DNA of 11,630 nt from Dehalococcoidia bacterium (GTDB taxonomy: Bacteria; Chloroflexota; Dehalococcoidia; SM23-28-2; RBG-16-64-32). A program made the position numbers and the translations under genes. Positions within the stretch are counted from its first letter, which is position 1. Every line of letters begins with the position of its first letter. The stretch is taken from NCBI GenBank assembly GCA_030690405.1, contig JAUYGU010000082.1, forward strand, positions 1 through 11,630, in the 5' to 3' direction. Below are positions 1-11,630 of the stretch, in pieces. The notes beneath the pieces were generated by a model. That model was not told the origin of the DNA, made no database searches, and saw nothing but the letters and a program-made list of their open reading frames with translations.

Positions 1-852
1 CTGGCGAGCGGCCTCCTCGAAGATGTTCCGCAGGTGGGCCTCGCTCTCCCCGTAGAACTTATGGATTATCTCCGGGCCGTTGATGTGGACGAAGTAGGCG
101 CTGGTCTCGTGGGCCACAGCGCGGGCGATGAGGGTCTTGCCGCAGCCGGGAGGGCCATGGAGGAGGACGCCCTTGGGAGGCTCGATGCCCAGCCGCTCGA
201 ACACCTCCGGATATCTCAGGGGCAGCTCGATCATCTCCCGGATGCGCTGGACCTCCTTGTGCAGGCCGCCAACGTCTTCGTAGGAGATGGTGCTTCGCAG
301 GGAGGGAGTGCCTTCACCCTTGAACTTGATAGCGGTGGAACGCTGGATGATGACAACGTCCTTGGGCGAGACTTCGGCCACGGTGAAGTCCTGGGCGCGG
401 GTCCCGAACAGGTCAAGACGCACCCGATCGCCAGCGGTCACCGGCAGCCCCTCCAGCTTGTGCGCGAGATAGCGGGTGTAACGTCCCCCCGGCCATGACT
501 TGACGGCTTCCACCGGGGCAAGGACGATGTTTCTGGCCGGCTGGTGCTCGACCACCTGCACCGAGACCTTCTCGTCCAGGCCGGTCTGAGCGTTTGCGCG
601 CAGGATGCCGTCGATCTGGACGAGGCCCTTTCCGCGCTCGGCCACGTAGGCCGGCATCGCCTTGGCCACCGTTCTCTCCTTGCCCACGATCTCCACGATA
701 TCGCCGATGGCGGCGCCCATCCGTTCCAAGTCTTGGGGATCCATGCGGGCAATCGCGCGGCCCACATCCCTGGCGTGCGCTTCGGCGACGCGCAGGGTGA
801 GGGGCTTGCGCCCGTTGTCGCTATCTATTCGGGTACGACGCTTAGCCGGCAT
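1..852 (-). CDS. CDC48/VCP-family AAA ATPase (C-terminus beyond window)
   Basis: This reading frame is open on the minus strand from the ATG at 852 to the left edge, giving 284 residues without a stop. Residues about 16-95 look like the CDC48 N-terminal double-psi barrel domain, and about 105-175 like the second N-domain. The first AAA module begins near residue 190, with YEDVGGL at 191-197 and a clear Walker A, GPPGCGKT, at 233-240. [16 protein letters not shown] at 266-281 matches the conserved segment after Walker A. Family members are about 700-800 residues with two AAA modules, so well over half is missing here. They are hexameric unfoldases or segregases that pull on protein substrates with ATP. 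The start overlaps the end of the upstream gene by 28 bases, which implies translational coupling; GAGG lies 6 bases before the ATG. Its place in the gvpH operon suggests remodelling or turnover of gas vesicle proteins, which is inference. The family call is secure. Confidence 0.93.
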
Positions 853-1895
853 TCCAGCCTCAACCCTTTCTTACTCAGGACCTCTGCCAACATGCTTACC
901 AATGACTCCACCCACTGCTTCAGGGCCTCCGGTGAGGCGTCTTCTGGCAATCCCACGTACGCGTCTCTCAGCTTCGGGTACGCCTTCGCCACGAGCGGCT
1001 CCAGATAGGGCATCACCTGGGCAAACAGTGTCTCCTCCAGCCCCTGCGCCTCGGCGGCCTTGCTCTGCCGGTAGAAGGGGGCCGTCTCCATGGCCAGGTC
1101 CAGGTAGCCCTTCATATCGGCTACCGTCAGCAGCAGCTCCGCGCCCGCGCGAGTCAGGCTTTCGCTCTCGACCTCCCGCTGGAGCATCTGCTCGAGCGCT
1201 CCCCTCTCACGAACGCCCTCCCCGGCATTGCGAAGGTTCTTCCGGTCCAGATGAAGCAACGATGCGCTGAAGCCGCTTTCGATGGTCAAGTCGTTGGCGA
1301 AGATCTCCCTGGGGGCGTACAGGCAGAGCTTGTCCACCATCACCTCCAGCAGACGATCCACCTTGGTTGGCCACTCCTTCTCCTGAGCCCCTGCGGCGAA
1401 CAACGGCCTCAGGCTGTCCGTCGAGATGTCCATCTTCAGCCTTCGCGCAGACAACGTCGTCTCGCACTCAGACAAAGGGTGGGCGTGCTCGTGGGCGAGG
1501 AGACCCTTTTCCGCTTCGCGGTCACCCCAGTACCCCTCCTTCTCCATCGCCTTCTGATTGACGAAGACGTGGCAGGAACCGGGGTTCTTGAGGTCGTAGA
1601 CGTTAACTATGGGCCTCTCTCCCAGCCCGGCCAGGCCGCCGGGCGGCAGGGCCGACAGGTCGGCCGACCTTCGGCCCGCCGCCTCCTGAGTGAGCTGCCT
1701 GATCAGGGGCTCAAGGTCTTTGAGGACGAAAAGGGTGACGGTCTGCTGCTGCCAGCGGGGGCTGGCGGCATATTTCTCGATAACGTCTGTCTCCACCTCG
1801 ACAAACGGGCCGAGGCTGGAGTCCATGTCTGAGACCACACGCAGCTCCGTGCCGGCGACCCGGTGAAGGCTAACGTGCTCGAGAAGGCTAGTCAT
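825..1895 (-). CDS. Unrecognised 356-aa protein with HExxH zinc-protease-like motif
   Basis: I do not recognise the family. The protein is 356 aa, soluble, with no signal peptide or membrane segment. [15 protein letters not shown] at 131-145 contains HEHAH (135-139), a perfect HExxH zincin signature, and acidic residues further on (E184, E197) could supply a third zinc ligand. A segment just before it (about 95-113, [16 protein letters not shown]) is beta-rich, as is usual ahead of a zincin helix. The C-terminal half is helical, and the last 15 residues are a short beta-type tail. It lies 12 bases after gvpH and overlaps the AAA ATPase start, so it is co-expressed with both. A peptidase paired with a CDC48-type unfoldase would make a degradation module, but one short motif does not prove catalysis. 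The start is unsure: GAAGG directly abuts the ATG with no spacer, and lies in what looks like a dispersed repeat. No better in-frame start was seen. Confidence 0.85.
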
Positions 1896-1914
1896 CCTTC
1901 GACAAGCTCAGGAC
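1893..1914. repeat. REP-like dispersed repeat at gvpH stop / next start
   Basis: On the plus strand this stretch reads TCCTTCGACAAGCTCAGGAC, with short inverted ends (TCCT at 1895-1898, AGGA at 1910-1913). I recall this sequence as a common intergenic repeat in Chloroflexota and some other environmental genomes; a genome-wide count could not be made. It supplies the TGA stop of gvpH (1908-1910) and the bases just before the ATG of the next minus-strand gene. Confidence 0.45.
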
Positions 1915-2444
1915 GGGTCCTTGGCTTTGCTGAAGCGCACTTCCAGTACCCCGTTCTTGTAGGCCTTCCTTAGTGTCGCGACATCGACAGGGCAGGGGAG
2001 CAGCACCTCCTTGGCGTACTTCCTGTCTCCCTTCGCCTCCAGGGAGAGGACGTCGTCCCTGACCTCAACCGCGATCTCGTCCTCCGCCACACCGGGTAGC
2101 TCGGCGACGACCAGGACGCTCTCGCTCTCGTCGAAGACGTCGACCATCGGTTCCCGCACCTCGTCCACCACCGGCCCCTCCTCGGTGGAGCGGATGTTCC
2201 CGAAACGCTCTACCGTGGGGATGCCCCCCAGGCCCGTCCTGATGGTGAACCCGTAGACACCCTTGGCGCGGTCGCCCAGGCCCTTGACCGTGAACTCGCC
2301 GGTCCTTGAGACCTCCGACTCGCCCTGCTCCACCATCTCCGAGATCAGCTCAAAGAAGTCACCCATCCCTTTGAAGATGCCGCCCAGGCCGAGATCGATG
2401 CTCGCCTCCGAGCGACGTTCGCGCCTTCGTTTCGTTTCGGCCAT
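1908..2444 (-). CDS. gvpH: Gas vesicle protein GvpH (Hsp20-like)
   Basis: This 178-aa protein has the two-part GvpH layout. The N-terminal half is glycine-rich and specific to gas vesicle proteins (LGLGGIFKGMGDFFELISEM at 18-37, then RTGEFTVKGLGDRAKGVYGF). The C-terminal half, about 98-173, is an alpha-crystallin/Hsp20 fold with ELPGVAEDEIAVEV near 115-128 and the terminal strand NGVLEVRF. GvpH belongs to the small heat-shock-like accessory proteins and is thought to hold GvpA or other Gvp proteins in soluble form during assembly. The ATG at 2444 is chosen because GGAAGGAGG sits 7 bases before it. A longer in-frame reading to 2630 lacks this and overlaps the upstream gene in a compositionally odd way. 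The gene lies 56 bases after the 258-aa gene and 12 bases before the HExxH gene. The last residues and the stop codon fall in a REP-like repeat. Confidence 0.93.
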   Translation of the reverse strand: MAETKRRRERRSEASIDLGLGGIFKGMGDFFELISEMVEQGESEVSRTGEFTVKGLGDRAKGVYGFTIRTGLGGIPTVERFGNIRSTEEGPVVDEVREPMVDVFDESESVLVVAELPGVAEDEIAVEVRDDVLSLEAKGDRKYAKEVLLPCPVDVATLRKAYKNGVLEVRFSKAKDPS

Positions 2445-2500
2445 CGGTATGCCTCCTTCCCGATCCGCACTCTGCCCCAGCGGCTGCCGCACGGCTCGCT

Positions 2501-3277
2501 CTAGGCGTTCTCGCCTCTGATCCTGCTGATGTATTCGTCCACGGAGGAGACGCTGGCGCCCGTCTCCACCGTCAGCGCCTCCCACCACCTCTGCCTGGCC
2601 GCTTCGTACTCTCCAGGGTTCTCCTGCCACTGCCGGAACCTCTCGAACACCCGCCTGAAGCCGTCCTGGGCCTCCTCCCAGCGCTCCTTATTGAACAGGG
2701 AGCCGATGGGGGCCACGGCCCCCTTCCCCTCTCCCTCGAACAGGGTGAGGGCGACGTCCCGCTCGAAGTCGGCGCCGTGGCCGGCGCTCATCCCGGAAAC
2801 CAAATAGCCTACCACGACACCGAAGGCCATGGCAAAGCGATCCTGCAAGCCCAGGCGGTAGGCGGCGTCCACGGCCAGGAAGGTGACCACGTGCGTCACG
2901 CCCGCCTCCGGCGGGAATCGCCCAGGGCCGGCACTTTCCTGGCGGGAGCGATGGATGGTCAGGGCGTCCTGATAGGAGAGCGGTGGCTTGTCTCGCCAGT
3001 GGCGGGCCGGGAACAGCCCCACGTCGAAGTCGCCCAGGGAGAAGCCGCCGACATCGCCGATCTTGGCGAAGGCGATACGCAACCGCTCCCATAGCTCGGC
3101 GAACACCGCCTCCGCAACCGAGACGTCGGGCTGGAGCACGATCTCCGGCCTCGCTCCGTCCCGCAGCACCAGGCGGCACTCGACACCCTCCAGGGCCTGC
3201 ATCTCGGCCGGTAGGGTTATCTCCACGCTGCCGCTGGTCCGGCCAGCGGAGCGTATCCTTCTCTTGTCCCAATCCAT
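2501..3277 (-). CDS. Unrecognised 258-aa protein, AbrB-like N-terminus
   Basis: This is the first gene of the leftward operon; its product family is not recognised. Residues about 7-48 (RIRSAGRTSGSVEITLPAEM, then LEGVECRLVLRDGARPEIVL) have the beta-rich pattern of a MazE/SpoVT-AbrB swapped-hairpin domain: a basic start, a G-S-V-x-I-x-L-P core, then a hydrophobic strand pair. The remaining 200 residues are mainly helical and contain no motif I can name. They include FSLGDFDVGLFPARHW (79-94) and a hydrophobic stretch AMAFGVVVGYLVSGM (149-163) that is probably buried rather than membrane-spanning. The C-terminal 60 residues are rich in W, E and R. The ATG at 3277 has AGAGAGG 8 bases upstream. 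As first gene next to the divergent region it could bind the operon's own control DNA, or be a structural accessory. The domain resemblance is moderate only. Confidence 0.85.
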   Translation of the reverse strand: MDWDKRRIRSAGRTSGSVEITLPAEMQALEGVECRLVLRDGARPEIVLQPDVSVAEAVFAELWERLRIAFAKIGDVGGFSLGDFDVGLFPARHWRDKPPLSYQDALTIHRSRQESAGPGRFPPEAGVTHVVTFLAVDAAYRLGLQDRFAMAFGVVVGYLVSGMSAGHGADFERDVALTLFEGEGKGAVAPIGSLFNKERWEEAQDGFRRVFERFRQWQENPGEYEAARQRWWEALTVETGASVSSVDEYISRIRGENA

Positions 3278-3797
3278 ATGCGGAACCTCTCTGAGCGTGG
3301 CGGATAGCAGCGGGAGGGTCGGCTTGCCAAACCACGCCTGTGGATGGTCACGCTAGTTTACCTAGCGCATGGTCTAGCAGAAAGCCTAGCGCACTCCCTG
3401 GGCTCTGTCAAATCCTGCTTCGTAGCAGCCCTCACTGGATGAATACGGCTCCTTGGCTCCAGCTACTTCACGAAGACATTCACGCTTGTTTCATGTCGTC
3501 CCCTTCTGGCTGTTTATTGTCTACCTGCGGCCAGGCACGTAGTATTGCCTGTCCTTCCTGTGAGAGCGCGGCACCTTCGCTGCGGGGAGTTTCGAGGAGG
3601 AGGCGAGTTGGCGGAATGAATGCCCGCCCTGCTACCGTCGCTTTTGCTGGCCACGCGCGCCTGCCCCAAAGCCTGGCCGGTTCTCATGGCTCCCCCTGTG
3701 GTCTCGGTGGAGCCGGGGCCCGACGTTGATACGGAAATCATCTTCGGCGCCGCCGTCGCGGGCATTCCGTCTCTGGGCAGGCGGGACTCGGTAGACG
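3278..3797. other. Divergent intergenic region between the two arms
   Basis: About 520 bases separate the leftward gvpH operon from the rightward secreted-protein gene. It must hold the promoters of both, though no convincing -10/-35 pair was found on either strand. It contains the CTAG cluster at 3351-3389 and a strong purine-rich Shine-Dalgarno run at 3594-3603 in front of a possible short frame at 3620. The part from about 3400 to 3590 shows nothing else I can name. Confidence 0.6.
3351..3392. promoter_or_regulatory. CTAG-rich candidate operator
   Basis: Four CTAG tetramers start at 3353, 3362, 3374 and 3386. The first two are halves of an inverted repeat, CGCTAG-TTTAC-CTAGCG (3351-3367). 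The last three are spaced exactly 12 bases apart, and two of them share CTAGCGCA. The site lies 74-115 bases upstream of the start of the leftward operon. CTAG is generally rare in bacterial DNA, so the clustering suggests a protein-binding site. No regulator is identified; the two AbrB-type proteins and the response regulator in the window are candidates. Confidence 0.4.
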
Positions 3798-3871
3798 GTG
3801 AGACGGCTGATGCTGGCGCCGTTGGTGGTGGTGATGCTGGCGGGGCCAGGCGCGGCGCAGGAAGGGACTGA
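3620..3871 (+). CDS. Possible short gene, 83 aa, doubtful
   Basis: This frame starts with ATG 16 bases after a very strong purine run (GAGGAGGAGG, 3594-3603), which is far for a ribosome site. Its first 55 codons mostly end in G or C, as in the real genes nearby. It begins with a hydrophobic run (MPALLPSLLLA), continues with a proline- and acid-rich stretch, and ends in a low-complexity G/A/R tail. The last 74 bases overlap the secreted-protein gene at 3798 in another frame, so only the first 60 residues could be independent coding. It could be a leader gene coupled to its neighbour, the true 5' part of that neighbour with a frameshift, or chance. No family is recognised. Confidence 0.25.
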   Translation: MPALLPSLLLATRACPKAWPVLMAPPVVSVEPGPDVDTEIIFGAAVAGIPSLGRRDSVDGETADAGAVGGGDAGGARRGAGRD

Positions 3872-4385
3872 CGAAACACCAACACGATCACAATCGGAGG
3901 CGGTGCCTGAGACACCTCATAAGTCCTCGGGTCTGCGGCTGCTTCCGGCGGGCCCGGATGTTCGCATGCTCACAGAGCTAGCCGCATCGGCGGCACGACC
4001 CACTGGTCGAACGAATGCTGTGCCGGATAACCCGCGCCTCACTGCTGGGGCGACAGGCCCCGGCCAAACGGGAGCGCCTGACGGGGCGACGGTGGAGAGA
4101 CAAGCCCCCATCACCTTCTACAGCTGCCTCGGGCCGCGGGGAGGGTTCTGCGGCGGCATGAGTAGCGGCAAGACGGTCTACGAGGGCGCCGCTGCCTGCG
4201 GTTATGCCTACGCTCTGGGCGAGCGGGTGAGCATCGTGGGCGACCCGACAGGGCGCGTCTACGTCTGCGAGGACCGCGGCCGGCTGGCCACGACGCAGGT
4301 GGACGTGTTCTGGTACCGCGAGGAGGACGGCCGGGCCTGGACCACGCAGGTGGGGAGGTGGGCCGAGGTGAGGCGGGAGCCGTGA
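3798..4385 (+). CDS. Secreted double-psi beta-barrel-like protein
   Basis: This 195-aa exported protein starts with a Sec signal peptide: MRRLM, a hydrophobic core LAPLVVVMLAG, then an AxA-type site (GAA-QEG, cleavage near 20). Residues 21-103 are a low-complexity P/T/G/A linker. The C-terminal domain (105-175) has TFYSC (106-110), GGFCGGMSSGKTV, AACGYAYALGERV (132-144), VYVCEDRG (154-161) and VDVFW (168-172). The G-x-x-V...V-x-x-D-R-G...VD-x-x pattern and paired cysteines resemble the double-psi beta-barrels of RlpA and 3D-domain proteins, which act on or bind cell-wall glycan. The catalytic aspartate set is incomplete, so activity is not claimed. The GTG at 3798 gives the basic signal-peptide start; ATG at 3810 is an alternative. 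It lies 88 bases before the response regulator. Its link to gas vesicles is unclear, and it may be a neighbour only. Confidence 0.8.
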   Translation: MRRLMLAPLVVVMLAGPGAAQEGTDETPTRSQSEAVPETPHKSSGLRLLPAGPDVRMLTELAASAARPTGRTNAVPDNPRLTAGATGPGQTGAPDGATVERQAPITFYSCLGPRGGFCGGMSSGKTVYEGAAACGYAYALGERVSIVGDPTGRVYVCEDRGRLATTQVDVFWYREEDGRAWTTQVGRWAEVRREP

Positions 4386-4473
4386 CCGCTGTGAGGTCCG
4401 CATCGCTGCGGAGGGTGGCTACGCCCCTGGGCAAGGGCGCACAGGTTAGCTGGAGGACTGGAGGCAGGACGCG

Positions 4474-5139
4474 ATGGCCCCCATAAAGACGCTGATCGCG
4501 GACGACCATCCTCTGGTGCGCGAGGGCATCCGCGCGATGCTGGCGACGGCCGACGACATCGAGGTCGTCGGGGAGGCAAGCGATGGCGCGCAAGCTGCCA
4601 GGTGGGCCGCAGGGCACGACGTCGATGTGGTGCTGCTGGACCTTCATATGCCTGGCCGGGACGGCCTTGAGGCGATAGGACGCATCAAGGCTCGGCGTCC
4701 CGCCGCAACAGTCGTGATGCTGACGGAGCACAGTGACGACGCCAGCGTCATCGATGCCGTGCTGGCAGGGGCCAGCGGCTACCTCCTCAAGGATGCCTCC
4801 CGCGATCTGCTGATCTACACCGTACGCGCGGCCCGCGGCGGGGGGACGCTGATTAAGACGAGCGTCCTCCAGGACGCGATCGCTGGGCTGGAGAGGGCCA
4901 ACGGGGGACGGCGCCTGTCGCCGGCGCCGAACGGCTACGTCTGCGAGAAGCTGACGCGGCGCGAGCTGGAGGTGCTGGAGCTGGTGGCCGAGGGCCTGAC
5001 CAACAAGGAGATCGGCAGGACCCTGTTCATCGCCGATGACACCGCCAAGAAGCACGTCCAGATGGTCATCGGCAAGCTGGGCGCCTCCGACCGCACTCAC
5101 GCCGTCATGCTGGCCGCGCGCGGCGGCCTCATCAGATGA
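4474..5139 (+). CDS. NarL/FixJ-type response regulator
   Basis: This 221-aa protein is a two-domain transcription factor. Receiver domain (1-120): acidic pair D10/D11 (ADDH), phospho-acceptor D56 in VVLLDLHMP, switch threonine T84 (VVMLTEH) and conserved K106 (YLLKDA). A linker of about 40 residues leads to a LuxR-type helix-turn-helix (about 160-219): [20 protein letters not shown], then [20 protein letters not shown]. All receiver residues are intact, so phosphorylation by a histidine kinase is expected, but no kinase is in the window. GGAGG lies 9 bases before the ATG at 4474. The gene is followed by an inverted-repeat-rich control region and then gvpA in the same direction, so it may control gas vesicle expression; that is inference from position. 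The function call is secure, the target is not known. Confidence 0.95.
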
Positions 5140-5162
5140 CACCCGGTCCCACTCCCCACGCT

Positions 5163-5216
5163 TTGGCCATGTGGCCAACGACAAATGGCCCAGATGGGGG
5201 GTGTAGGGCTGGGCCA
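5163..5216. promoter_or_regulatory. Inverted repeats after the response regulator
   Basis: Two dyads lie between the regulator gene and gvpA. TTGGCC-ATGT-GGCCAA (5163-5178) is a perfect 6-base-arm repeat. TGGCCCA (5186-5192) pairs with TGGGCCA (5210-5216) across a 17-base gap, and the shared TGGCC core makes them look related. There is no T-run after either, so a standard intrinsic terminator is unlikely; a binding site or a weak termination structure is possible. Confidence 0.35.
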
Positions 5217-5335
5217 GTCAGGCGCAATGTCTAGGGTTCGCTAAGGAACGTAACAGGAGAGAGCTTCAGGCATCCTCAGATTCGACATTAACGGCAGAGT
5301 CCGACGGACAGGGGAGTCGTCCACGTGCTCTGCTC

Positions 5336-5350
5336 TTGACCCAAGGTCAA
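5336..5350. promoter_or_regulatory. Dyad TTGACC-CAA-GGTCAA upstream of gvpA
   Basis: A perfect inverted repeat with 6-base arms and a 3-base centre lies 26 bases before the gvpA start codon. It is too close to the start for a normal promoter -35, although the left arm resembles one. A small second dyad, GTCCG-A-CGGAC, lies at 5299-5309. The likely role is an operator or an element in the 5' leader of the gvpA mRNA. Confidence 0.4.
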
Positions 5351-5376
5351 CCGATCAGCGAGAGGAGGTGAGTGGA

Positions 5377-5583
5377 ATGGCAGTGGAGAAGGCAATCGCA
5401 TCTTCCAGCCTGGCGGAGGTGGTGGACCGGATCCTGGACAAGGGCATCGTCATCGACGCCTGGGTCCGGGTCAGCCTGGTCGGCATCGAGCTATTGGCCG
5501 TCGAGGCGCGCGTGGTCACCTCAGGGGTGGACACTTTTCTCAAGTACGCGGAGGCTGTGGGCCTCACGGCCGCGTCAGCCTAG
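5377..5583 (+). CDS. gvpA: Gas vesicle structural protein GvpA
   Basis: This 68-aa protein is an unmistakable GvpA, the small hydrophobic subunit that polymerises into the ribs of the gas vesicle wall. The conserved core is present: [20 protein letters not shown] (9-28), [19 protein letters not shown] (29-47), and the helix [12 protein letters not shown] (53-64). The order is the usual helix, two beta strands, helix, with a short variable tail. The ATG at 5377 has GAGGAGG 8 bases upstream; the GTG at 5368 overlaps that ribosome site and is rejected. It is the only gvpA-type gene seen here, and no gvpJ or gvpM paralogue is in the window. It is preceded by a roughly 240-base control region with several dyads and followed by two GC-rich hairpins, an arrangement that suits separate, higher expression of the shell protein relative to the genes after it. 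Confidence 0.98.
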
Positions 5584-5605
5584 ATCGGACCGGCCTGGGC
5601 GGAGC

Positions 5606-5657
5606 GTCGGGGCCGCCTGCCCCGACCGCCAGCCGGGCTCCCGCCCCGATCCGGGGC
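5606..5657 (+). terminator. Two GC hairpins after gvpA (attenuator-like)
   Basis: GTCGGGG (5606-5612) pairs with CCCCGAC (5620-5626) around a 7-base loop, and GCCCCG (5643-5648) pairs with CGGGGC (5652-5657) around ATC. Both start within 75 bases of the gvpA stop. Neither has a following T-run, so they more likely attenuate or protect the 3' end of an abundant gvpA mRNA than terminate fully. The next gene, 85 bases on, has no obvious promoter of its own. Confidence 0.4.
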
Positions 5658-5742
5658 CGCTGGAGTCGCTGGTGCGTCCCGACGCGCATCCAGGCTGATC
5701 ATTCATCCCGTTGACAGCGGGGTCGAGAGGAGATGATGGAAA

Positions 5743-6582
5743 ATGGGCCTGATCCAGCAATTCCAGAAAGCTGGTGCCCAACGCCGCAAGGAGGTGGCTG
5801 CCCTGGGCCGCGAGGTGACGGCCATGCGGGCCGACGCCAACGCTTTCGTAGGGCACCTGCATCGGGTCAGCGCTGACCGGCGCAAGGAGGTGGCGGCCAT
5901 GCGCGCCGACGCCGACGCCTTCGTCGGCCACCTGCACCGGGTCAGCGCCGACCGCCGGTCGGAGGTGGCCACTATGTGCGCCGAAGCTGACGCCTTCGTC
6001 GGCCGCCTGCACCGGGTCAGCGCCGACCGCAGCAAGCAGGTGGCGGCCATGCGGGCCGATGCCGACGCCTTCGTCGGCCACCTTCACGGGGTCAGCGCCG
6101 GCCGCCGGAAAGAGGTGGCCACCATGCGCGCCGACGCCGACGCCTTTGTAGGGCACCTGCACGGGGTCAGCGCCGACCGCTGCTCCGAGGTGGCGACGAT
6201 GCGAGCCGACGCCGACGCCTTTGTAGGGCACCTGCACCGCGTCAGCGCCGACCGGCGCAAGGAGGTAGCTGCGCTGATCGATGAGGCCGATGCGTTCGTC
6301 CGCCACCTGCACCAGGCCAGCGCTGACCGCCGCACCGAGATATGGGGCGGGGCAGCGCCCCGGATGGCTCCCACGCCTGCCGCCGTTGCGGCGGCCGCCC
6401 CGGCGGGCACCACCCTCCGTGACGTCATCTTCGCCTACCTGGCCGAGCACCCCGACGGCGCCAGGCTGGCCCAGATGGAGCAGGACCTGGGCATGGCGCG
6501 CATCAAGCTGGCCGGGGAGATGCGAAGCCTCATCGACGAAAAGAAGGTGCAGAAGCGGGAGATGCTGTACTTCGCCGTGTAG
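5743..6582 (+). CDS. GvpC-like 25-aa repeat protein with winged-helix-like C-terminus
   Basis: This 279-aa protein has three parts. Residues 1-45 are a helical lead-in (MGLIQQFQKAGAQRRKEVAA onward) resembling the start of cyanobacterial GvpC. Residues 46-195 are six tandem 25-residue repeats of the form RRKEVAAMRADADAF-VGHLHRVSAD; a seventh, first copy (14-45) carries seven extra residues. These are amphipathic helices with a fixed AF-VGHLH core, like the AF..L core of GvpC repeats, though classic units are 33 residues. After a P/A linker (201-222), residues 223-279 (TLRDVIFAYLAEHPDGARLA, then a helix and IDEKKVQKREMLYFAV) look like a winged helix. GvpC proteins clamp the outside of the wall and stiffen it. 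Placement right after gvpA supports that role; the extra domain is unusual and may mediate protein contacts. GAGAGGAG lies 10 bases before the ATG. Repeat copy number may vary between strains. Confidence 0.85.
   Translation: MGLIQQFQKAGAQRRKEVAALGREVTAMRADANAFVGHLHRVSADRRKEVAAMRADADAFVGHLHRVSADRRSEVATMCAEADAFVGRLHRVSADRSKQVAAMRADADAFVGHLHGVSAGRRKEVATMRADADAFVGHLHGVSADRCSEVATMRADADAFVGHLHRVSADRRKEVAALIDEADAFVRHLHQASADRRTEIWGGAAPRMAPTPAAVAAAAPAGTTLRDVIFAYLAEHPDGARLAQMEQDLGMARIKLAGEMRSLIDEKKVQKREMLYFAV
5782..6327 (+). repeat. Tandem 75-bp coding repeats
   Basis: Six in-register 75-base units span 5878-6327, preceded by a longer first unit (96 bases, 5782-5877). They encode the 25-residue repeats of the GvpC-like protein. 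Segments such as GCCGACGCCTTCGTCGGCCA and GGGTCAGCGCCGACC recur almost unchanged, which indicates recent duplication or ongoing recombination. Confidence 0.9.
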
Positions 6583-6622
6583 CGAGGGCGGGTTTGTCGT
6601 CATGAACAAAATAATTCGACAG

Positions 6623-6698
6623 CAGGCAGGGCTGAAGCCCTGCAGCTACGATCCTGTCTGGTCTCTGTTTCGTAGCTGCAGACCTTTAGGTCTGCCTG
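6623..6698. repeat. Symmetric double-hairpin intergenic element (76 bp)
   Basis: The ends are CAGGCAG (6623-6629) and CTGCCTG (6692-6698). Inside, a first hairpin GCAGGGCT-GA-AGCCCTGC (6626-6643) and a second GCAGACCT-TT-AGGTCTGC (6678-6695) flank GCAGCTACG and its complement CGTAGCTGC. The two hairpins differ in sequence, but both members of each pair change together. It resembles the BIME/REP or small MITE-type dispersed elements of environmental genomes. It lies between the GvpC-like gene and the first zinc-motif gene. Confidence 0.7.
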
Positions 6699-6780
6699 GA
6701 GAGGGCAACCCGCACTGTCGCACTATTTTCTCAATGACCAGCAACCCGCGGACGGTCTCTGCAGTGAGAAGGAGGAGCTG

Positions 6781-7131
6781 TTGGCTGGAAAGGTGATCAC
6801 CTGCGCTTTCTGCGGGGGATCGGGCAAGGACCCCTTCGGGGTCATGTCCGCGCTATCCACCTGTCAGGTGTGCGGCGGCAAGGGCTCCGTAGCCGTTGAG
6901 GAACCCGCCGTCAGGTGCGCCTTCTGCGGCGGTAGCGGCGTGCACCGGGACCAGCGGCTTACCTGCACCGCCTGCGCCGGCAAAGGGATGATCAGCGTCC
7001 ACTCGCCTCACGCGAAGTGCCCCCGCTGCCGAGGGGCTGGAACGGACCCGGAGATTAACTACCTGCCCTGCGTCCTGTGCAAAGGCTCGGCGGTAGTCAC
7101 GGTCAAGGAGAGGGTTGCTGGCGTAGCGTAG
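6781..7131 (+). CDS. DnaJ-type zinc-motif protein, six CxxCxGxG, no J-domain
   Basis: This 116-aa protein consists almost wholly of six CxxCxGxG motifs: CAFCGGSG (8-15), CQVCGGKG (28-35), CAFCGGSG (46-53), CTACAGKG (62-69), CPRCRGAG (80-87) and CVLCKGSA (97-104, last glycine replaced). This is the zinc-binding repeat of DnaJ/Hsp40, where four copies bind two zinc ions and assist substrate binding and disulfide chemistry. Six copies would fit three zinc sites. There is no J-domain and no C-terminal substrate domain, so it cannot stimulate DnaK on its own. The start is TTG at 6781, chosen because AAGGAGG lies 5 bases before it and the first motif follows at once. A paralogue lies at 8839. It sits between the gvpC-like gene and gvpN, suggesting a gas vesicle assembly helper. 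The TAG stop lies within a 30-base palindrome. Confidence 0.9.
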   Translation: MAGKVITCAFCGGSGKDPFGVMSALSTCQVCGGKGSVAVEEPAVRCAFCGGSGVHRDQRLTCTACAGKGMISVHSPHAKCPRCRGAGTDPEINYLPCVLCKGSAVVTVKERVAGVA

Positions 7132-7156
7132 GGGCGCAGCATGCTGCGCCCCTACG
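7127..7156. repeat. Perfect 30-bp palindrome before gvpN
   Basis: The sequence is perfectly self-complementary with no loop, centred at 7141/7142; each arm is CGTAGGGGCGCAGCA or its complement. It contains the stop codon of the zinc-motif gene (7129-7131) and ends 24 bases before the gvpN start. I recall similar GTAGGGGCGCAGCA palindromes as dispersed repeats in Chloroflexota and cyanobacteria-like genomes. As RNA it would form a very stable hairpin that could reduce read-through or protect upstream mRNA. There is no T-run. Confidence 0.75.
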
Positions 7157-7180
7157 GGTGACAGAAGGGAGCGACAAACA

Positions 7181-8110
7181 ATGGTTACCGCTATGAGAGA
7201 GGAAGGGGTCACCACCGTACTGGAGCCCCGCCCCATGCCCAACTTCGTGGAGACGAAGTCCGTAAAGGAGATCACGGACCGGGCCCTGGCCTACGTCAAG
7301 GCAGGCTTCCCGGTGCACCTGAGAGGAGCCTCGGGGACGGGGAAGACCACTTTGGCCATGCACGTGGCCAGCAAGATCGGCCGGCCTGTGGTGATGATCC
7401 ATGGGGACGAGGAGTTCAGCACATCCGACCTAGTGGGGGGAGAGAACGGCTATCGCATGAGGAAGGTGGTGGACAACTTCATCCACTCCGTCCTCAAGAC
7501 CGAGGAGGACATGGTGAGCAGGTGGGTGGACAACCGCCTGACCGTGGCCTGCAAGTACGGCTTCACCCTTCTCTACGACGAGTTCACCAGGTCGCGCCCG
7601 GAGGCCAACAACGTTCTCCTCTCGGTGCTGGCGGAGAAGATGCTGGACCTGCCGGCGGCGCGGGGAAACGGCGAAAACTACCTCCAGGTGGACCCGGAGT
7701 TCACGGCCATCTTCACCAGCAACCCCGAGGAGTACGCCGGGGTCTACCGGAGTCAGGACGCCCTGCGGGACCGGCTGGTGACCCTGGACCTGGACCACTT
7801 CGATGAGGAGACCGAGGTGGCCATAACGGCGGCCAAGTCCGGGCTGGCCCGTGCTGACGCCAAGAAGATCGTCGCTGTGGTGCGGGCTCTCCGGGAGTTG
7901 GGCATATGCGAATACGCCCCCACCGTCCGCGGACCGATCATGATCGCCAAGACCCTGAAGGTCCTGAACGGCTCGGTTAGCGCCAGAGACCCCGTCTTCA
8001 GGAGGCTTTGCCTGGACATCCTGCCTTCAGAGGCGAGCAGGGTCGGCAGCCGGGAGCAGAGCGCCCGGGTGAAAGAGATGGTAGGCAAGCTGATCGACGA
8101 GCACTGCTGA
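7181..8110 (+). CDS. gvpN: Gas vesicle AAA+ protein GvpN
   Basis: This 309-aa protein is a MoxR-like AAA+ ATPase of the GvpN family. Walker A is GASGTGKT (49-56), Walker B is TLLYDE (129-134), and GDEEFSTSDLVGGENGYRM (75-93) between them is characteristic of GvpN. FTSNPEEYAGVYRSQDALRD near 183-202 contains sensor 1 (TSN), followed by RLVTLDLDHFDEETE. Length and order match the family (about 300-350 aa). GvpN is needed for normal gas vesicle size; mutants elsewhere make only small vesicles, and it probably uses ATP to promote enlargement of the initial bicone. The ATG at 7181 has GGGAG 9 bases upstream; ATG 7193 is a weaker option. It follows the zinc-motif gene after a 49-base gap occupied by a palindrome, and is 36 bases before a small AbrB-type gene. 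Confidence 0.97.
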   Translation: MVTAMREEGVTTVLEPRPMPNFVETKSVKEITDRALAYVKAGFPVHLRGASGTGKTTLAMHVASKIGRPVVMIHGDEEFSTSDLVGGENGYRMRKVVDNFIHSVLKTEEDMVSRWVDNRLTVACKYGFTLLYDEFTRSRPEANNVLLSVLAEKMLDLPAARGNGENYLQVDPEFTAIFTSNPEEYAGVYRSQDALRDRLVTLDLDHFDEETEVAITAAKSGLARADAKKIVAVVRALRELGICEYAPTVRGPIMIAKTLKVLNGSVSARDPVFRRLCLDILPSEASRVGSREQSARVKEMVGKLIDEHC

Positions 8111-8146
8111 AGCGCACGAGGCTGAGGAATCAGAGAGGTGATGGCG

Positions 8147-8308
8147 ATGGCGCTTATGAGAGTGATGACCAGACTGGACAAGGACGGCAAGGTCAGCATT
8201 CCGGCCAACATCCGTCGCGCGACGGGCCTCCAGCCAGGCCAGATGGTGGAGGTCAAGGTCGTGGCCAGGGGGAGCATAGTGGTAGCGGCCAGGACCAACG
8301 CCAGGTAG
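8147..8308 (+). CDS. Small SpoVT/AbrB-domain protein
   Basis: This 53-aa protein is just long enough for one AbrB-type swapped-hairpin domain. TRLDKDGKVSIPANIRRATG matches the family core (basic start, D-G-x-V-x-I-P-x-x-I-R), followed by LQPGQMVEVKVV and a final strand GSIVVAAR. Such domains form dimers that bind DNA, as antitoxins or transition-state regulators. No toxin gene is adjacent, so an antitoxin role is not supported. AGAGAGG ends 8 bases before the ATG at 8147; an ATG at 8141, adding two residues, is too close to it (2 bases), and ATG 8156 is also possible. It lies 36 bases after gvpN and 25 bases before the next gene, within the operon. It may autoregulate the cluster, perhaps together with the 258-aa protein of the leftward arm that has a similar N-terminus. 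Confidence 0.8.
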   Translation: MALMRVMTRLDKDGKVSIPANIRRATGLQPGQMVEVKVVARGSIVVAARTNAR

Positions 8309-8333
8309 CATCGGCCAGCGGCCAGGCGAATCG

Positions 8334-8810
8334 ATGAACGAGAGGGACAAGCGAGCTGCCATGGAGCGAGAGCGTAGCCAGCCCAGCGATGAGGTGACCG
8401 GCGACGACAATGCAGGAGAGCGCGACCAGCAAGGGAGCGGGTCTCCCCTGCGGGGGGTGCAGCACCTGAAGGGCGTGCAGGACATCGGCACCGGCCTCAA
8501 CAGGAGGATGCGCGCCATCCCCAAGCGGGAGGAGCACTACTACCTGGACCTCTACCTGCTGCAAAAGGAGCGGGAGAGGCTGAACCAGGAGGGCGTCTCG
8601 ATCGGCAAGCGGCGGGTGCGGCTGGGCCGGCGCCTGGCTGGCATCCAGGACGAGATGGTTGAGAAGGAGCAGAAGGCGCGGGAGAACATGGGCTCGCCCG
8701 CGCGGCCCGCCCGCGACAGAGGCAGGCGCCCCAAAGCTCCTCCCAAGAACAAGCCGAAAAAGAACGAATACAAGGAAGAAGAATGGCAGCGGATCTCCAT
8801 CAACTACTGA
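8334..8810 (+). CDS. Unrecognised 158-aa basic coiled-coil protein
   Basis: No family is recognised with confidence. The N-terminal 40 residues are charged and look disordered. Residues 41-62 (RGVQHLKGVQDIGTGLNRRM with neighbours) lead into IPKREEHYYLDLYLLQKERE (62-81), and a heptad-like helix runs to about 118 (RLNQEGVSIGKRRVRLGRRL onward). The last 40 residues are lysine-, arginine- and proline-rich, then acidic, ending RISINY. The overall picture is a coiled-coil with disordered tails, consistent with a small structural or adaptor protein. It sits between the AbrB-type gene and the second zinc-motif gene, in the same direction with short gaps, so it is probably a gas vesicle accessory. The ribosome site before ATG 8334 is poor; ATG 8361 is an alternative start. 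Confidence 0.8.
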   Translation: MNERDKRAAMERERSQPSDEVTGDDNAGERDQQGSGSPLRGVQHLKGVQDIGTGLNRRMRAIPKREEHYYLDLYLLQKERERLNQEGVSIGKRRVRLGRRLAGIQDEMVEKEQKARENMGSPARPARDRGRRPKAPPKNKPKKNEYKEEEWQRISINY

Positions 8811-8838
8811 GCGTCGCCCGGCGGACAGGGAGCTAGCC

Positions 8839-9231
8839 GTGGAGTGGCAGCATTACCGGACGAAGCAGCGATCGGCCCTAGGAACGGTGGGCACGCCCCT
8901 GAATGGGGAGGCGTTCCCCTGCGCCTACTGCCACGGAACGGGCGCCCAGCTCCACATGAGGACCACGTGTCCTGTTTGCGGCGGAAAGGGCTCCAACCAG
9001 GTCGGCGGGCCGGTCGCGGTCTGCGCTTTCTGTAGGGGAGCCGGCGAGGCTCCGCCGCGGTCGCACCTCACCTGCCCCGCCTGTCGCGGCAGTGGGGTGA
9101 TCGCGGTCAAGGAGCCGCTGGAGAAGTGCGACGCTTGTCGGGGCATTGGGCGCACCACGGGCACCCAACTGCCGTGCCTGAAATGCAAGGGCGCGGGCGT
9201 GTTCACCGCGAATCGTCGCGGAATGACGTAG
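8839..9231 (+). CDS. Second DnaJ-type zinc-motif protein, six CxxCxGxG
   Basis: This 130-aa protein is a paralogue of the one at 6781. A 27-residue lead (MEWQHYRTKQRSALG onward) precedes six motifs: CAYCHGTG (28-35), CPVCGGKG (44-51), CAFCRGAG (62-69), CPACRGSG (79-86), CDACRGIG (97-104) and CLKCKGAG (113-120). All six are complete, including the last, which is degenerate in the other copy. Motif spacing is 16-18 residues throughout. The segments between motifs also match the paralogue (for example LTCxAC and LPCxxCKG), so duplication is more likely than convergence. The GTG start at 8839 is chosen because AGGGAG lies 6 bases before it; further upstream the frame only shadows the preceding gene. 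It stops 14 bases before the next gene, whose ribosome site follows the stop at once. The expected role is zinc-dependent chaperone or scaffold, with no J-domain of its own. Confidence 0.88.
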   Translation: MEWQHYRTKQRSALGTVGTPLNGEAFPCAYCHGTGAQLHMRTTCPVCGGKGSNQVGGPVAVCAFCRGAGEAPPRSHLTCPACRGSGVIAVKEPLEKCDACRGIGRTTGTQLPCLKCKGAGVFTANRRGMT

Positions 9232-9245
9232 GGAGGCGCGGCGCT

Positions 9246-9743
9246 ATGGCGGTAAGACCAAGGCTGACGGTGGATGCCCTGACCAGGCTGGAAATGGCCA
9301 GGGAGAGAGCCAGGATAACGGGGAGGAAACCCGCGCTGCCCTCCCCCCTGGAGCAGGCGGCGGAGGAGTGGAAGGCGCAGCAAGAGCAGGGAGAGAGGCG
9401 CCCGTTTGAGCCGGCTGGCCAAACCTCAGTGGTGACTCTTCAACGAGTGCCCTTGGAGGCCCGCGCCGACGGCCGCCGGACGGATGGAGAGGTTCCCTGG
9501 AGGTCGCTGCCGTGGGGAGTTGAGCACCAACCGAGGCGGGTACGGCTCAACGGCGCCATGATGGGTCGCATCGTCCAGACGCTGCGGGCCAGGGAGTGGG
9601 CCAGGGCCACGGGAAGAAAGACACGCGCGCCCCTGGAGTCTGACCTCGAGGCCTGGGCCGAGAGGTGGAAGAGGGCCGAACCAGTGAAGGCGAACGACGC
9701 CGGGGGATCAACCGGGCCCAGGAACCCGCAGGGGCGATCATGA
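9246..9743 (+). CDS. Unrecognised 165-aa protein with internal duplication
   Basis: The family is not recognised. The protein is soluble, charged and rich in R, E, A and W. It contains two related helical segments. The first (about 12-48) includes RLEMARERARITGRK, then PLEQAAEEWKAQ. The second (about 105-145) includes TLRAREWARATGRK, then PLESDLEAWAERWKRAE. Both show A-R-E-x-A-R-x-T-G-R-K, about seven residues, then P-L-E, and E-x-W. A less conserved linker with PWRSLPWG lies between them. The paired layout suggests two binding surfaces, as in an adaptor. GGGAGG lies 9 bases before the ATG at 9246, overlapping the previous stop. Its own stop overlaps the next start as ATGA, so translation of the two is coupled. 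The position points to a gas vesicle accessory, but no function can be assigned. Confidence 0.85.
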   Translation: MAVRPRLTVDALTRLEMARERARITGRKPALPSPLEQAAEEWKAQQEQGERRPFEPAGQTSVVTLQRVPLEARADGRRTDGEVPWRSLPWGVEHQPRRVRLNGAMMGRIVQTLRAREWARATGRKTRAPLESDLEAWAERWKRAEPVKANDAGGSTGPRNPQGRS

Positions 9744-9970
9744 GGCCGCAGACGCTCTCCATCGCCGCCCTCGCGATAATCATCATCACCCTCCTGGACA
9801 TCTTAGGCGGGATGGAAAGCAAACCCCACCACTATATCCTCTTGCTCGTAGCAGCGACCTTCGGATTGGCGGCGCAGGTGTGGGACTACCTCGCATTGCG
9901 GCAAGGGGATAAGGCCCCGGTGCCCGAGGAGCGTGCCGGTCGAAAGCCGACCGCTCGTGGGGGCTCCTGA
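9740..9970 (+). CDS. Small membrane protein, two transmembrane segments
   Basis: This 76-aa protein has two clear hydrophobic segments: about 5-24 (TLSIAALAIIIITLLDILGG) and about 32-53 (HYILLLVAATFGLAAQVWDY). A short loop with KPHH lies between them, and a charged tail (DKAPVPEERAGRKPTARGGS) follows. It resembles a helical hairpin in the membrane, with the tail probably in the cytoplasm. Its start overlaps the previous stop as ATGA (9740-9743), and its TGA shares a base with the ATG of the J-domain GvpF/L gene (9968-9972), so all three are coupled. A membrane protein is unusual among gvp genes; some clusters encode a small one called GvpS or similar, but no sequence match can be claimed here. 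It might tether assembly factors to the membrane. Confidence 0.85.
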   Translation: MRPQTLSIAALAIIIITLLDILGGMESKPHHYILLLVAATFGLAAQVWDYLALRQGDKAPVPEERAGRKPTARGGS

Positions 9971-11043
9971 TGGCGCGGACGTACATCTACGGCGTCATCC
10001 CTAGCGGCCAATCGCTGACCTTCGGCCTGTCCGGCTTCCCGCCCAAGCCGGAAGAGGTGCGCACCGTGGCCCACCGAGGCCTGGCCTGTGTCGTAAGCAA
10101 TTATTCTGGCGAGGATTTTGCCTCTCTACCTAAGGAGACGCTGCTCCGCTGCTTGATGGCCCATCAGGAAGTCGTAGAGCGCGTCATGCAGGCTTTCCCC
10201 GTCCTGCCCGTGAAGTTCGGGACCCTCGTTGAAAGTGAGGCTGAGGCGCAGAGACTCATCGAACAGAGCCATGGGCGGCTCGGCCAGGCCCTTGAGCGGC
10301 TGACGGGAAAGATGGAGATGGAGGTAGCGGCCACCTGGGACCTGAAGCGGGTCCTGGAGGAAGTCGGGCAAGCAGATGAGATCCTGCGGCTGAGGGAATC
10401 GATAGCTGGGCGGCCTGCTACGGAAGTGCTGGAAGTGCAGATACAGGCCGGGAAGATCGTCAAGGAATCCCTGGACCGGCGGCGGGAAGAATTCCAGCAG
10501 CACCTGCTGGAATCCCTCGGGGGAGCGGCTCTGGATGCACAGCCGAATGCACTGGTCGCCGATGAGATGGTGCTAAACGTGGCCTTCCTGATCGAGAAGA
10601 AGCGGGAGGAGGAGTTCGACGAGCAGGTGAGGAAGCTGGATGGGGCTCTCAACGGCGAGGTGAGCTTTCGCATCGTCGGTCCGCTGCCGCCCTACAGCTT
10701 CGCCACCGTGGACGTGGCTCGGCCCAGCGTCGACAAGCTGGAGGAGGCGCGGCGCCTGCTCGGTCTTGGCGCCAGCGTGTCGCAGGCAGAGGTCAAACAG
10801 GCCTACCGGCGGCTGGCAGCGCAGACGCATCCCGATGCGCGCGGTGAAAACGGGCAGGGGGATCGGGAGTTCGTCCGGGTGCGGGAAGCTTACGATCTGC
10901 TGACCGCCTACTGTCGCGGACAGGAGGACGGCGACGGCGAGAAGACCGGAGAGCGACACTTCTCCCTGGCCCCCGAGGACGTGTGCCAGGCCTTCTTGGT
11001 CAGTATACGGCGGGCTACGGGAGAGGCGGTCTGGCCGGAATGA
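9970..11043 (+). CDS. GvpF/L-family protein fused to a DnaJ J-domain
   Basis: This 357-aa protein joins two known domains. Residues 4-250 are a GvpF/GvpL domain: TYIYGVI at the start, LACVVSNYSG (38-47), MAHQEVVERVM (63-73), FPVLPVKFGTLV (76-87) and VSFRIVGPLPPYSF near 231-244, all typical. Residues about 256-315 are a J-domain: LEEARRLLGLGASVSQAEVK, then QAYRRLAAQTHPDA with the invariant HPD at 287-289, a short loop, and FVRVREAYDLL. About 40 further residues form an unassigned tail. GvpF/L proteins bind GvpA and other Gvps early in assembly; J-domains stimulate the DnaK ATPase and deliver clients. The fusion would bring DnaK to Gvp proteins directly. The usual GvpF/L length is about 210-280 aa, so the J-domain is an addition. 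The gene is coupled at both ends (TGATG before, ATGA after). Confidence 0.95.
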   Translation: MARTYIYGVIPSGQSLTFGLSGFPPKPEEVRTVAHRGLACVVSNYSGEDFASLPKETLLRCLMAHQEVVERVMQAFPVLPVKFGTLVESEAEAQRLIEQSHGRLGQALERLTGKMEMEVAATWDLKRVLEEVGQADEILRLRESIAGRPATEVLEVQIQAGKIVKESLDRRREEFQQHLLESLGGAALDAQPNALVADEMVLNVAFLIEKKREEEFDEQVRKLDGALNGEVSFRIVGPLPPYSFATVDVARPSVDKLEEARRLLGLGASVSQAEVKQAYRRLAAQTHPDARGENGQGDREFVRVREAYDLLTAYCRGQEDGDGEKTGERHFSLAPEDVCQAFLVSIRRATGEAVWPE

Positions 11044-11630
11044 CGCAAACGGGAGAGATGGTCCGCCCACCGCGCCCCCGGCGGGATACCGAGGAGGCCA
11101 AGTACCTCTACTGCATCATCAAGTGCAACCGGGAGCGCGACTTCCAGGGCGCGCAAGCGATCGGCGTCCGCGGCGACCACGTGCACACCGTGGTCTCTCG
11201 CGACCTGGCGGCGGTGATCAGCGACTCGCCGGACATGAAGTACGACACTACCCGCGCCAACATGATGGCGCACCAGACGGTCATCGAGCGGGTGATGAAT
11301 GAGGGGCTCACCGTCCTGCCCATAAGGTTCGGGACTGTGACCAAGCCAGGCACGACCACGCCGGTCGAGGACATCCGGCATAAGCTCTTGGACCGCAAGT
11401 CCGACGAGTTGGGGGATCTCTATCGGCAGATGGACGGCAGGGTGGAGCTGGGCCTCAAGGCCCTCTGGCGCGATGTGAAAGCGATCTTCGAGGAGCTGGT
11501 CGCGGAGAACAGAGCCATACGGACGGCCAGAGGCGCTCTCCTGCCGCGCATGTCGCGGCCGGCGGAGACGACCCGCTTCGACAGGATGCGACTGGGGGAG
11601 ACGGTAAAGGCCGCGCTGGATCGCAAGCGG
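11040..11630 (+). CDS. Second GvpF/L-family protein (3' end beyond window)
   Basis: The frame is open from the ATG at 11040 to the right edge, 197 codons. After a charged 18-residue lead it shows the GvpF/L pattern: KYLYCIIKC (21-29), HVHTVVSRDLAAVIS (47-61), MKYDTTRANMMAHQTVIERV (66-85), LTVLPIRFGTV (90-100), and VELGLKALWRDVKAIFEEL (135-153), which is followed by a basic helix. The match of MAHQ-VIERVM and VLP-I-RFGT to the gene just before shows a tandem pair, although the two have diverged widely. GvpF and GvpL are usually both present and have separate roles in assembly; I cannot tell which one this is. Whether it also carries a J-domain or other extension is unknown. The start overlaps the previous stop (ATGA), so the two are translated together. 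Confidence 0.93.
   Translation, partial: MTQTGEMVRPPRPRRDTEEAKYLYCIIKCNRERDFQGAQAIGVRGDHVHTVVSRDLAAVISDSPDMKYDTTRANMMAHQTVIERVMNEGLTVLPIRFGTVTKPGTTTPVEDIRHKLLDRKSDELGDLYRQMDGRVELGLKALWRDVKAIFEELVAENRAIRTARGALLPRMSRPAETTRFDRMRLGETVKAALDRKR

Follow-up and report, generated by a model that had tools for sequence, protein, structure and literature searches.

A GvpF/L-J-domain fusion and six-motif zinc proteins, with a linked Hsp70 in some related clusters, suggest a dedicated folding machine for gas vesicles

The DnaJ-type zinc domain consists of four CxxCxGxG motifs which bind two zinc ions, and type I DnaJ carries the J-domain, the zinc domain and a C-terminal domain in one chain. In HscB, the J-domain is N-terminal. 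In the isc operon, the J-protein HscB, which binds its client by a domain of its own, is encoded together with the Hsp70 paralogue HscA beside the process that the pair serves (in part PMC6506825). ZnJ2 and BSD2 contain DnaJ-type CxxCxGxG motifs without a J-domain, and a section of PMC5818400 describes ZnJ2 as holding clients without adding to refolding by DnaK. For GvpF proteins other than the one treated here, sections of PMC11445434 and PMC9501494 report binding to GvpA and propose a role as GvpA chaperone; the first of these sections treats it as an open question by what means GvpA, which is very hydrophobic, is kept in solution and enters the growing shell. ATPase and chaperone genes are known inside gvp operons in the form of ArsA and Hsp20, and the text of PMC2963123, which describes these operons, mentions neither Hsp70 nor DnaJ.

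The window, the whole stretch of 11,630 nucleotides that was analysed (positions 1 to 11,630), contains a gvp cluster in which a GvpF/L protein ends in a J-domain. This fusion, FL-J (9970..11043, plus strand), matches PF06386 over residues 4-245 (7.1e-61; profile positions 2-244 of 245 aligned) and PF00226 over residues 263-312 (6.5e-11) in one ORF, as the initial annotation had read it. Its HPD motif is intact at residues 287-289. In the predicted structure (mean pLDDT 87.3), helices span residues 254-263, 272-286 and 296-319, and HPD lies between the last two, as it lies between helices II and III in the J-domain of a class C J-protein. The J region also matched the J-domain of E. coli DnaJ (1bqz, 1.6e-7). 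Studied GvpF and GvpL proteins (PDB 6l5d, 250 aa; 4qsg, 253 aa) share the PF06386 domain, but their chains have the length of this domain alone, whereas in FL-J a J-domain follows. FL-J differs from HscB in its putative client, in the use of GvpF/L as binding domain and in the C-terminal position of its J-domain.

Also on the plus strand are the genes for the GvpA shell protein (5377..5583; PF00741 3.1e-16, scored on the ORF from 5368), a repeat protein which is possibly GvpC (5743..6582; repeats of about 25 residues read from the translation, no Pfam match above cut-off), the zinc proteins Zn1 (6781..7131) and Zn2 (8839..9231), the GvpN AAA ATPase (7181..8110; TIGR02640 345.2 bits, cut-off 266.8) and a second GvpF/L with no J-domain in its visible part (11040..11630; PF06386 2e-34 on a longer ORF), which is cut by the window edge. 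The minus strand encodes the N-terminal part of a CDC48-type AAA ATPase (1..852; PF02359 3.6e-25, PF00004 7.3e-17), also cut by the window edge, and an Hsp20/GvpH-like small heat shock protein (1908..2444; PF00011 1.6e-6, PF05455 3.9e-5; NCBIfam Hsp20 model NF041800 155.6 bits, cut-off 140). Both minus-strand families had been named correctly before. The Hsp20-like gene probably extends to 2444 and not to 2630, because the ATG at 2444, as we read the sequence, is the likely start.

FL-J has 804 relatives at E <= 1e-3, and of the best 120, which were the ones listed, 119 contain both fusion domains. For Zn1, the same threshold gives 341 relatives. Chance is therefore excluded for the observed genes. 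FL-J loci span many phyla. We compared 80 of them, found with the fusion as query and thus containing FL-J by construction (L007 and L008 carry an identical isolate name). HPD aligns with the expected columns in 70 of the 81 alignment rows (the window plus the 80 loci), being kept in 69 of the 80 loci and lost in 11, L016, L024, L030, L047 and L051 among the latter. The loci with HPD include those of two named genomes, Ktedonobacter robiniae SOSP1-30 (L065) and Oscillochloris sp. ZM17-4 (L032). The downstream neighbour of FL-J is an FL gene in 64/80. L310, in which one ORF has Hsp20-like, GvpF/L and J parts, was not used as evidence; its GvpF/L start is missing, and therefore a deletion or an assembly fault is likely.

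The linkage of Hsp70 to FL-J, which is the strongest evidence, comes from outside the window. It is known from relatives only and was invisible to the initial annotation, because the window stops short of the site that Hsp70 occupies in them. The arrangement expected of a dedicated pair, with an Hsp70 paralogue encoded with the J-protein, was seen in 18 of the 80 loci (L198 and L011 among them), on the FL-J strand in 18/18 and with the nearest gvp-type ORF less than 400 bp away in 17/18 (ORFs taken from stop to stop, with overlaps overstated). No Hsp70 was seen in the other 62 loci, many of which are short; of 40 loci with more than 7 kb downstream, 27 showed none. Three of five FL-J genomes picked regardless of Hsp70 had no Hsp70 on the gvp contig. 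Cluster Hsp70 was found in none of 25 FL-only genomes, in which GvpF/L has no J-domain (20 Chloroflexota and 5 with zinc genes from the Desulfobacterota sample; several on short contigs). The difference between 18/80 and 0/25 gives a Fisher p of 0.006 with relatedness ignored. The even Chloroflexota sample gave 3/20 FL-J vs. 0/20 FL-only genomes (p 0.23; several contigs shorter than 8 kb). When 218 genomes of the Desulfobacterota sample were searched with a gvp-Hsp70 profile, the four best matches scored above 900 bits and were all on contigs with gvp genes, and the next scored 820.

In the Hsp70 tree, which excludes ten pieces shorter than 350 residues as well as repeat copies of one stretch, the cluster Hsp70s fell into two groups of 17 rows (support 96/90) and 3 Anaerolineae rows (100/100). 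The latter represent two genomes and are nested among Chloroflexota DnaKs. A single clade of cluster Hsp70s was rejected (p-AU 0.0083); FL-J clusters acquired Hsp70 on two or more occasions, from at least two origins. Four catalytic-site residues are conserved in 20/20 cluster Hsp70s, and the arginine which contacts the J-domain is present in 19/20, L030 having K. By these residues and the two tree groups, the cluster Hsp70s of the relatives are intact and distinct from housekeeping DnaK; L266 is frame-broken. Cluster Hsp70 differs from HscA in its two origins and in being seen only in part of the FL-J clusters.

From the observed domain make-up, conservation, gene order and Hsp70 linkage with its two origins, we propose that FL-J is probably a gas-vesicle-specific class C J-protein which hands GvpA-family shell proteins to Hsp70 for assembly, in a manner comparable to that of HscB with HscA, with the zinc proteins alongside. 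As to binding and clients, the GvpF/L part would bind the hydrophobic GvpA-family shell proteins. In the ATPase cycle that we infer, the C-terminal J-domain would dock on Hsp70 and trigger ATP hydrolysis, and Hsp70 would then clamp the shell protein, which would thereby stay competent for assembly until the vesicle takes it up. FL-J would work with the cluster's own Hsp70 if one is encoded and with housekeeping DnaK elsewhere.

Zn1 and Zn2 each have six CxxC motifs of the CxxCxGxG type at a spacing of 16-20 residues. Zn1 is almost nothing but motifs, while Zn2 has about 27 residues ahead of the first one. PF00684 matched both (1.9e-11 for Zn1; 5.6e-12 for Zn2, scored on the longer ORF 8659-9231), which bears out the earlier reading of such motifs in two separate proteins, with the correction that there are six in each and not the four of a DnaJ-type zinc domain. 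The nearest neighbour of Zn2 in the zinc tree is L002_7626 (77% identity), and the position of Zn1 upstream of gvpN recurs in other phyla. These proteins resemble ZnJ2 and BSD2 in having the motifs without a J-domain, but differ from ZnJ2 in having six motifs instead of four, in being bacterial, in lying inside gvp clusters and in that their holding role is putative.

The co-occurrence of zinc-only proteins with GvpF/L-J fusions, which the initial annotation had proposed as a check, was found in 32 of the 80 loci; none was seen in the other 48, many of which are short. Among the homologues listed, fusion P0083 and zinc protein P0133 also agree in the length of their longest contig (19523), a hint that both lie on one contig; comparison by eye revealed no such agreement for Hsp70. 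In samples of three phyla, zinc-only proteins were present in 12/31 FL-J vs. 4/32 FL-only genomes, counts which are lower bounds because limited candidates were scored per genome (at most 13 in one scan and at most 6 in a second, with similar limits in the others). The FL-only count excludes G192 and G107, whose FL is weak and partial, and includes for these tallies G389 (L304), which has a gvp-type Hsp70 on a contig that begins inside the cluster. Zinc genes are also present in five genomes whose GvpF/L has no J-domain. They were found in 32/69 loci with HPD vs. 0/11 without (Fisher p 0.0025), but a tree-based pairs test had a median p of 0.5. We do not claim this link because the test that allows for relatedness gives no significance.

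It had been suggested that the functions of DnaJ were divided at this locus and dedicated to Gvp proteins. The dedication is supported by the J-domain being conserved, by its place on GvpF/L and by the cluster Hsp70 in relatives. The idea of a DnaJ in pieces did not stand. Type I DnaJ and the window proteins share the J-domain (PF00226) and the zinc motifs (PF00684), but in the window these are in separate chains, FL-J having PF06386 and PF00226 only; Pfam gave no J-domain match in Zn1 or Zn2 and no DnaJ C-terminal domain match in FL-J, Zn1 or Zn2. A broken-up DnaJ gene is rejected by the six motifs and because J genes and zinc genes are distributed separately. Zinc proteins are present in the five genomes with J-less GvpF/L, and so are more than the other half which a split DnaJ would lack. 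Misread canonical DnaJ was likewise rejected: in one search DnaJ-sized ORFs scored below 45 bits and gvp zinc proteins at least 76. In another sample, the zinc profile gave 59 bits with a true DnaJ (G521) and 68 bits with a six-motif protein outside gvp genes (G513). Most likely the zinc proteins, like ZnJ2 and BSD2, are holding factors; they would serve the clients of FL-J alongside it, and are most likely not an obligate part of it.

It is rather doubtful that the zinc proteins are instead regulators or redox proteins unrelated to J and Hsp70, acting by anti-TRAP-like binding or by DNA- or RNA-linked control of gvp genes. The anti-TRAP family PF15777 did reach 43.0 bits on the Zn2 ORF (cut-off 32), winged-helix-like regions are joined to zinc proteins in L023, L042 and L198 (only PF24409 in L198 above cut-off), and the five genomes have zinc genes without FL-J. 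However, the best PDB match of the last four motifs of the zinc profile was the DnaJ zinc domain 1exk (2.5e-10 vs. 1.2e-5 for the anti-TRAP type), and Zn1-like and Zn2-like genes occupy recurrent places in several phyla.

A CDC48 homologue is found in 57/80 loci, directly upstream of FL-J in 49/80, and Hsp20 homologues are found in 53/80. Together with FL-J and Hsp70, these form a set which resembles disaggregation machinery; such a set could pull apart misfolded or surplus shell protein or dismantle vesicles rather than deliver shell protein for assembly. We regard this quality-control role as unlikely, since CDC48 and Hsp20 are also present in FL-only clusters and so do not need the J-domain, and since GvpF is proposed as an early binder of GvpA in a section of PMC11445434. 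We judge quite improbable a reading in which GvpF/L carries the J-domain as a relic or as a structural tail, and in which the linked Hsp70 is just another stress gene of an operon under stress regulation. A gvp locus with a nearby hsp20 was read as heat-shock linked in a section of PMC7325909, and HPD is lost in the 11 loci, ten of which are consistent with one clade; against this, HPD is kept in the other 69, and Hsp70 was gained by FL-J clusters two or more times and seen in none of the 25 FL-only genomes. Against our own proposal stand the loss of HPD in the 11 loci, in 6 of which cluster Hsp70 is still present and therefore kept without the canonical J signature, the 62 loci in which no cluster Hsp70 was seen, and the low count in the even Chloroflexota sample.

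FL-J and the zinc proteins, with their own Hsp70 in some related clusters, thus suggest a dedicated folding machine for gas vesicles. More tentatively, and with something short of even confidence, a large group of bacteria, most of them uncultured, may assemble gas vesicles by means of an Hsp70 machine of their own. The jobs of DnaJ would then be spread over gvp proteins: GvpF/L-J would select the shell protein and call Hsp70, the zinc proteins would act in trans as holders of clients, and the ATP-driven step would fall to a gvp-specific DnaK that was recruited on two or more occasions. With a J-domain on GvpF/L and an Hsp70 in the cluster, the solubility and insertion of GvpA become a biochemical question which an HPD point mutant can test. 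FL-J and Hsp70 would, if the proposal is true, be a new private pair besides the iron-sulphur one, and these sets could give better chaperone sets for gas vesicles in heterologous hosts.

The gene between gvpN and Zn2 (8334..8810, plus strand) is conserved, with homologues in 31 of the 80 FL-J loci; its product matches neither a Pfam nor an NCBIfam family. An ArsA homologue is present in 28 of the 80 loci.

The + strand of the window from 5377 onward is a gas vesicle cluster. It encodes, in order, GvpA, a repeat protein, the zinc protein Zn1 (6781-7131), GvpN, a small MazE/AbrB-like protein, a conserved gene (8334-8810), the zinc protein Zn2 (8839-9231), two further genes, the GvpF/L-J-domain fusion FL-J (9970-11043) and a second GvpF/L. 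The genes from Zn1 through the second GvpF/L are closely spaced on a single strand. The - strand carries a CDC48-type ATPase, a protein at 825-1895, an Hsp20/GvpH-like protein and a protein at 2501-3277. The parts from which the initial annotation had assembled a DnaJ-like system divided over this cluster are real, but the GvpH start and the zinc motif count need correcting. The 356-residue protein at 825-1895 contains an HEHAH (HExxH-type) stretch and has homologues in 13 of the 80 FL-J loci; the 258-residue protein at 2501-3277 has homologues in 9 of them, and neither matched Pfam or NCBIfam. The MazE/AbrB-type protein (8141-8308, +; PF04014, 6.1e-7) lies within the gvp gene row. The repeat protein (5743-6582, +) has repeats of about 25 residues and a C-terminal region that looks, by eye, like a winged helix; it is possibly GvpC.

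The fusion is a real and wide family. Both PF06386 (GvpF/L) and PF00226 (J-domain) were found in 119 of the best 120 of 804 FL-J relatives (E <= 1e-3), the sole exception being a partial protein. Scanning a single genome of each species yielded 174 confirmed stretches, and 80 loci were retained from these. Since the fusion served as the query, every one of them has one FL-J. Their record titles name Chloroflexi, Thermodesulfovibrionales, Desulfobacteraceae, Actinomycetota, Planctomycetes, Omnitrophota, KSB1, Acidobacteria and others. We also sampled evenly the phyla of a Chloroflexi, a Desulfobacteraceae and a Thermoleophilia genome (the Chloroflexota, Desulfobacterota and Actinomycetota samples). 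FL-J was present in 20 of 301, 8 of 218 and 3 of 217 genomes, respectively, with one Chloroflexota copy (G021) divided over contig ends and one Desulfobacterota copy (G441) broken into two same-frame pieces.

The J region of the window protein is similar to the E. coli DnaJ J-domain (1bqz, 1.6e-7), and its predicted structure has all three helices, together with the HPD loop. In the alignment of the 80 loci and the window, 70 of 81 rows have HPD at the corresponding position. The motif is lost in 11 loci, as QPD in L001 and with further changes in ten others, which are compatible with a single clade (p-AU 0.558). The QPD-type FL-J of L001 (9998-11059) lies outside a gvp cluster; nearby genes encode a phage integrase and a protein with an FRG domain, and directly upstream there is only a match of 57 bits to the repeat protein of the window. 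L310 has a single ORF (1199-2605) with Hsp20-like, GvpF/L and J parts, in which the GvpF/L start is absent; this may be an assembly fault.

Exactly six CxxC motifs were counted in 111 of the 120 listed Zn1 homologues. The best solved relative of the zinc-protein profile (A2) is the DnaJ zinc domain, matched through the profile's last four motifs. When 19 whole genomes were searched, strong matches (>= 76 bits) fell on the contigs that carry the loci's gvp genes, and weak ones (< 45 bits) in DnaJ-sized ORFs. Zinc genes occur in 32 of the 80 FL-J loci, two or more in 15. Across several phyla, a Zn1-like gene precedes gvpN in 10 rows from the 80 loci, plus the window, and a Zn2-like gene follows the 8334-8810 homologue in 9 rows, plus the window. 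The zinc-protein tree, built from 106 columns only, was poorly resolved. The Anaerolineae clusters L007, L008 and L011 have four to five successive zinc ORFs, and in them an ArsA homologue lies close to the Hsp70 and FL-J genes.

In the Chloroflexota sample, all 7 of 301 genomes with a zinc match > 60 bits have FL-J, and the gene was found in 7/20 FL-J vs. 0/20 FL-only genomes (GvpF/L without J; Fisher p 0.008). In the Actinomycetota sample, zinc gene and FL-J are in the same three genomes. Nine of the 218 Desulfobacterota-sample genomes passed the zinc threshold of 1e-14: two have FL-J and four a GvpF/L without J; G531 has a gvp cluster whose divergent GvpF/L is below threshold, the G521 match is a true DnaJ, and the six-motif protein of G513 (L194, 9367-9762) is close to an Omp85-type gene, not among gvp genes. 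For the co-occurrence of zinc-only proteins with FL-J, which the initial annotation named as a check, the pooled samples gave 12/31 FL-J vs. 4/32 FL-only genomes (p 0.022, ignoring relatedness and omitting G531, G513 and G521).

Examination of FL-J neighbours revealed an Hsp70 (PF00012, 761 bits). Its gene is in 18 of the 80 loci, always on the FL-J strand, and in 13 of the 40 with > 7 kb of sequence downstream. By stop-to-stop ORFs, it follows a GvpA-like ORF in 15 of the 18; among the Anaerolineae loci, it immediately precedes FL-J in L007 and L011 and is 1.7 kb ahead of it in L008. In L198, the ORF just before Hsp70 (9695-10801) has a GvpA-type domain (PF00741, 4.3e-17) followed by GRAM/PH-like matches. 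The examined stretches of five J-less, zinc-carrying Desulfobacterota-sample genomes contained no Hsp70. We searched 24 FL-J genomes, 19 of them picked for an Hsp70 found beforehand; among the remaining five, an Hsp70 is on a gvp contig in two (G001, G006) and not in three. Most of the 24 also have a housekeeping-type DnaK. With a gvp-Hsp70 profile against 218 genomes, the four best matches (G006, G389, G425, G436), the only ones placed, all fall on gvp-bearing contigs; the matches listed do not include G407's cluster Hsp70, which is more divergent.

In a tree of 47 Hsp70s, 17 cluster-linked ones form one group (96/90), and three from Anaerolineae, representing two genomes only, form a second (100/100) inside Chloroflexota housekeeping DnaKs. 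A single clade of all 20 was rejected (p-AU 0.0083). The four residues that we take to be catalytic are kept in 20/20, the presumed J-contact arginine in 19/20, and the presumed linker aspartate in 19/20, the exception (L266) being a cut end.

The arrangement of a GvpF/L-J protein, frequent six-motif zinc proteins and, in part of the clusters, a private Hsp70 is real and widespread. As far as sequence evidence goes, it would work like a dedicated Hsp70/J pair, a class of which the window's own cluster is a candidate member. No description of these genes in gvp clusters was found in the literature, searched by titles and abstract starts with most subscription papers outside coverage, so novelty is not proven; ArsA and Hsp20 are already known in gvp operons (PMC2963123). 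In one system GvpF is described as GvpA2's primary partner, in another as the only Gvp binding GvpA by split-GFP assay, and it is a proposed GvpA chaperone (PMC11445434, PMC9501494). A J-domain on such a GvpA-binding GvpF/L may convert simple holding into a cycle run by Hsp70, by analogy with HscB/HscA. For the zinc proteins, an auxiliary role in holding is more likely, by analogy with ZnJ2, which prevents aggregation and does not add to DnaK refolding (PMC5818400).

CDC48 adjoining FL-J would also be compatible with a role in quality control. Several counts weigh against the Hsp70/J reading: most FL-J loci are without a visible Hsp70, and the evenly sampled Chloroflexota have the cluster Hsp70 in 3/20 FL-J vs. 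0/20 FL-only genomes, which is not significant (p 0.23). Six of the 11 HPD-less loci (L016, L024, L028, L030, L047, L051) retain the cluster Hsp70, which is left unaccounted for by a simple model of J acting on Hsp70.
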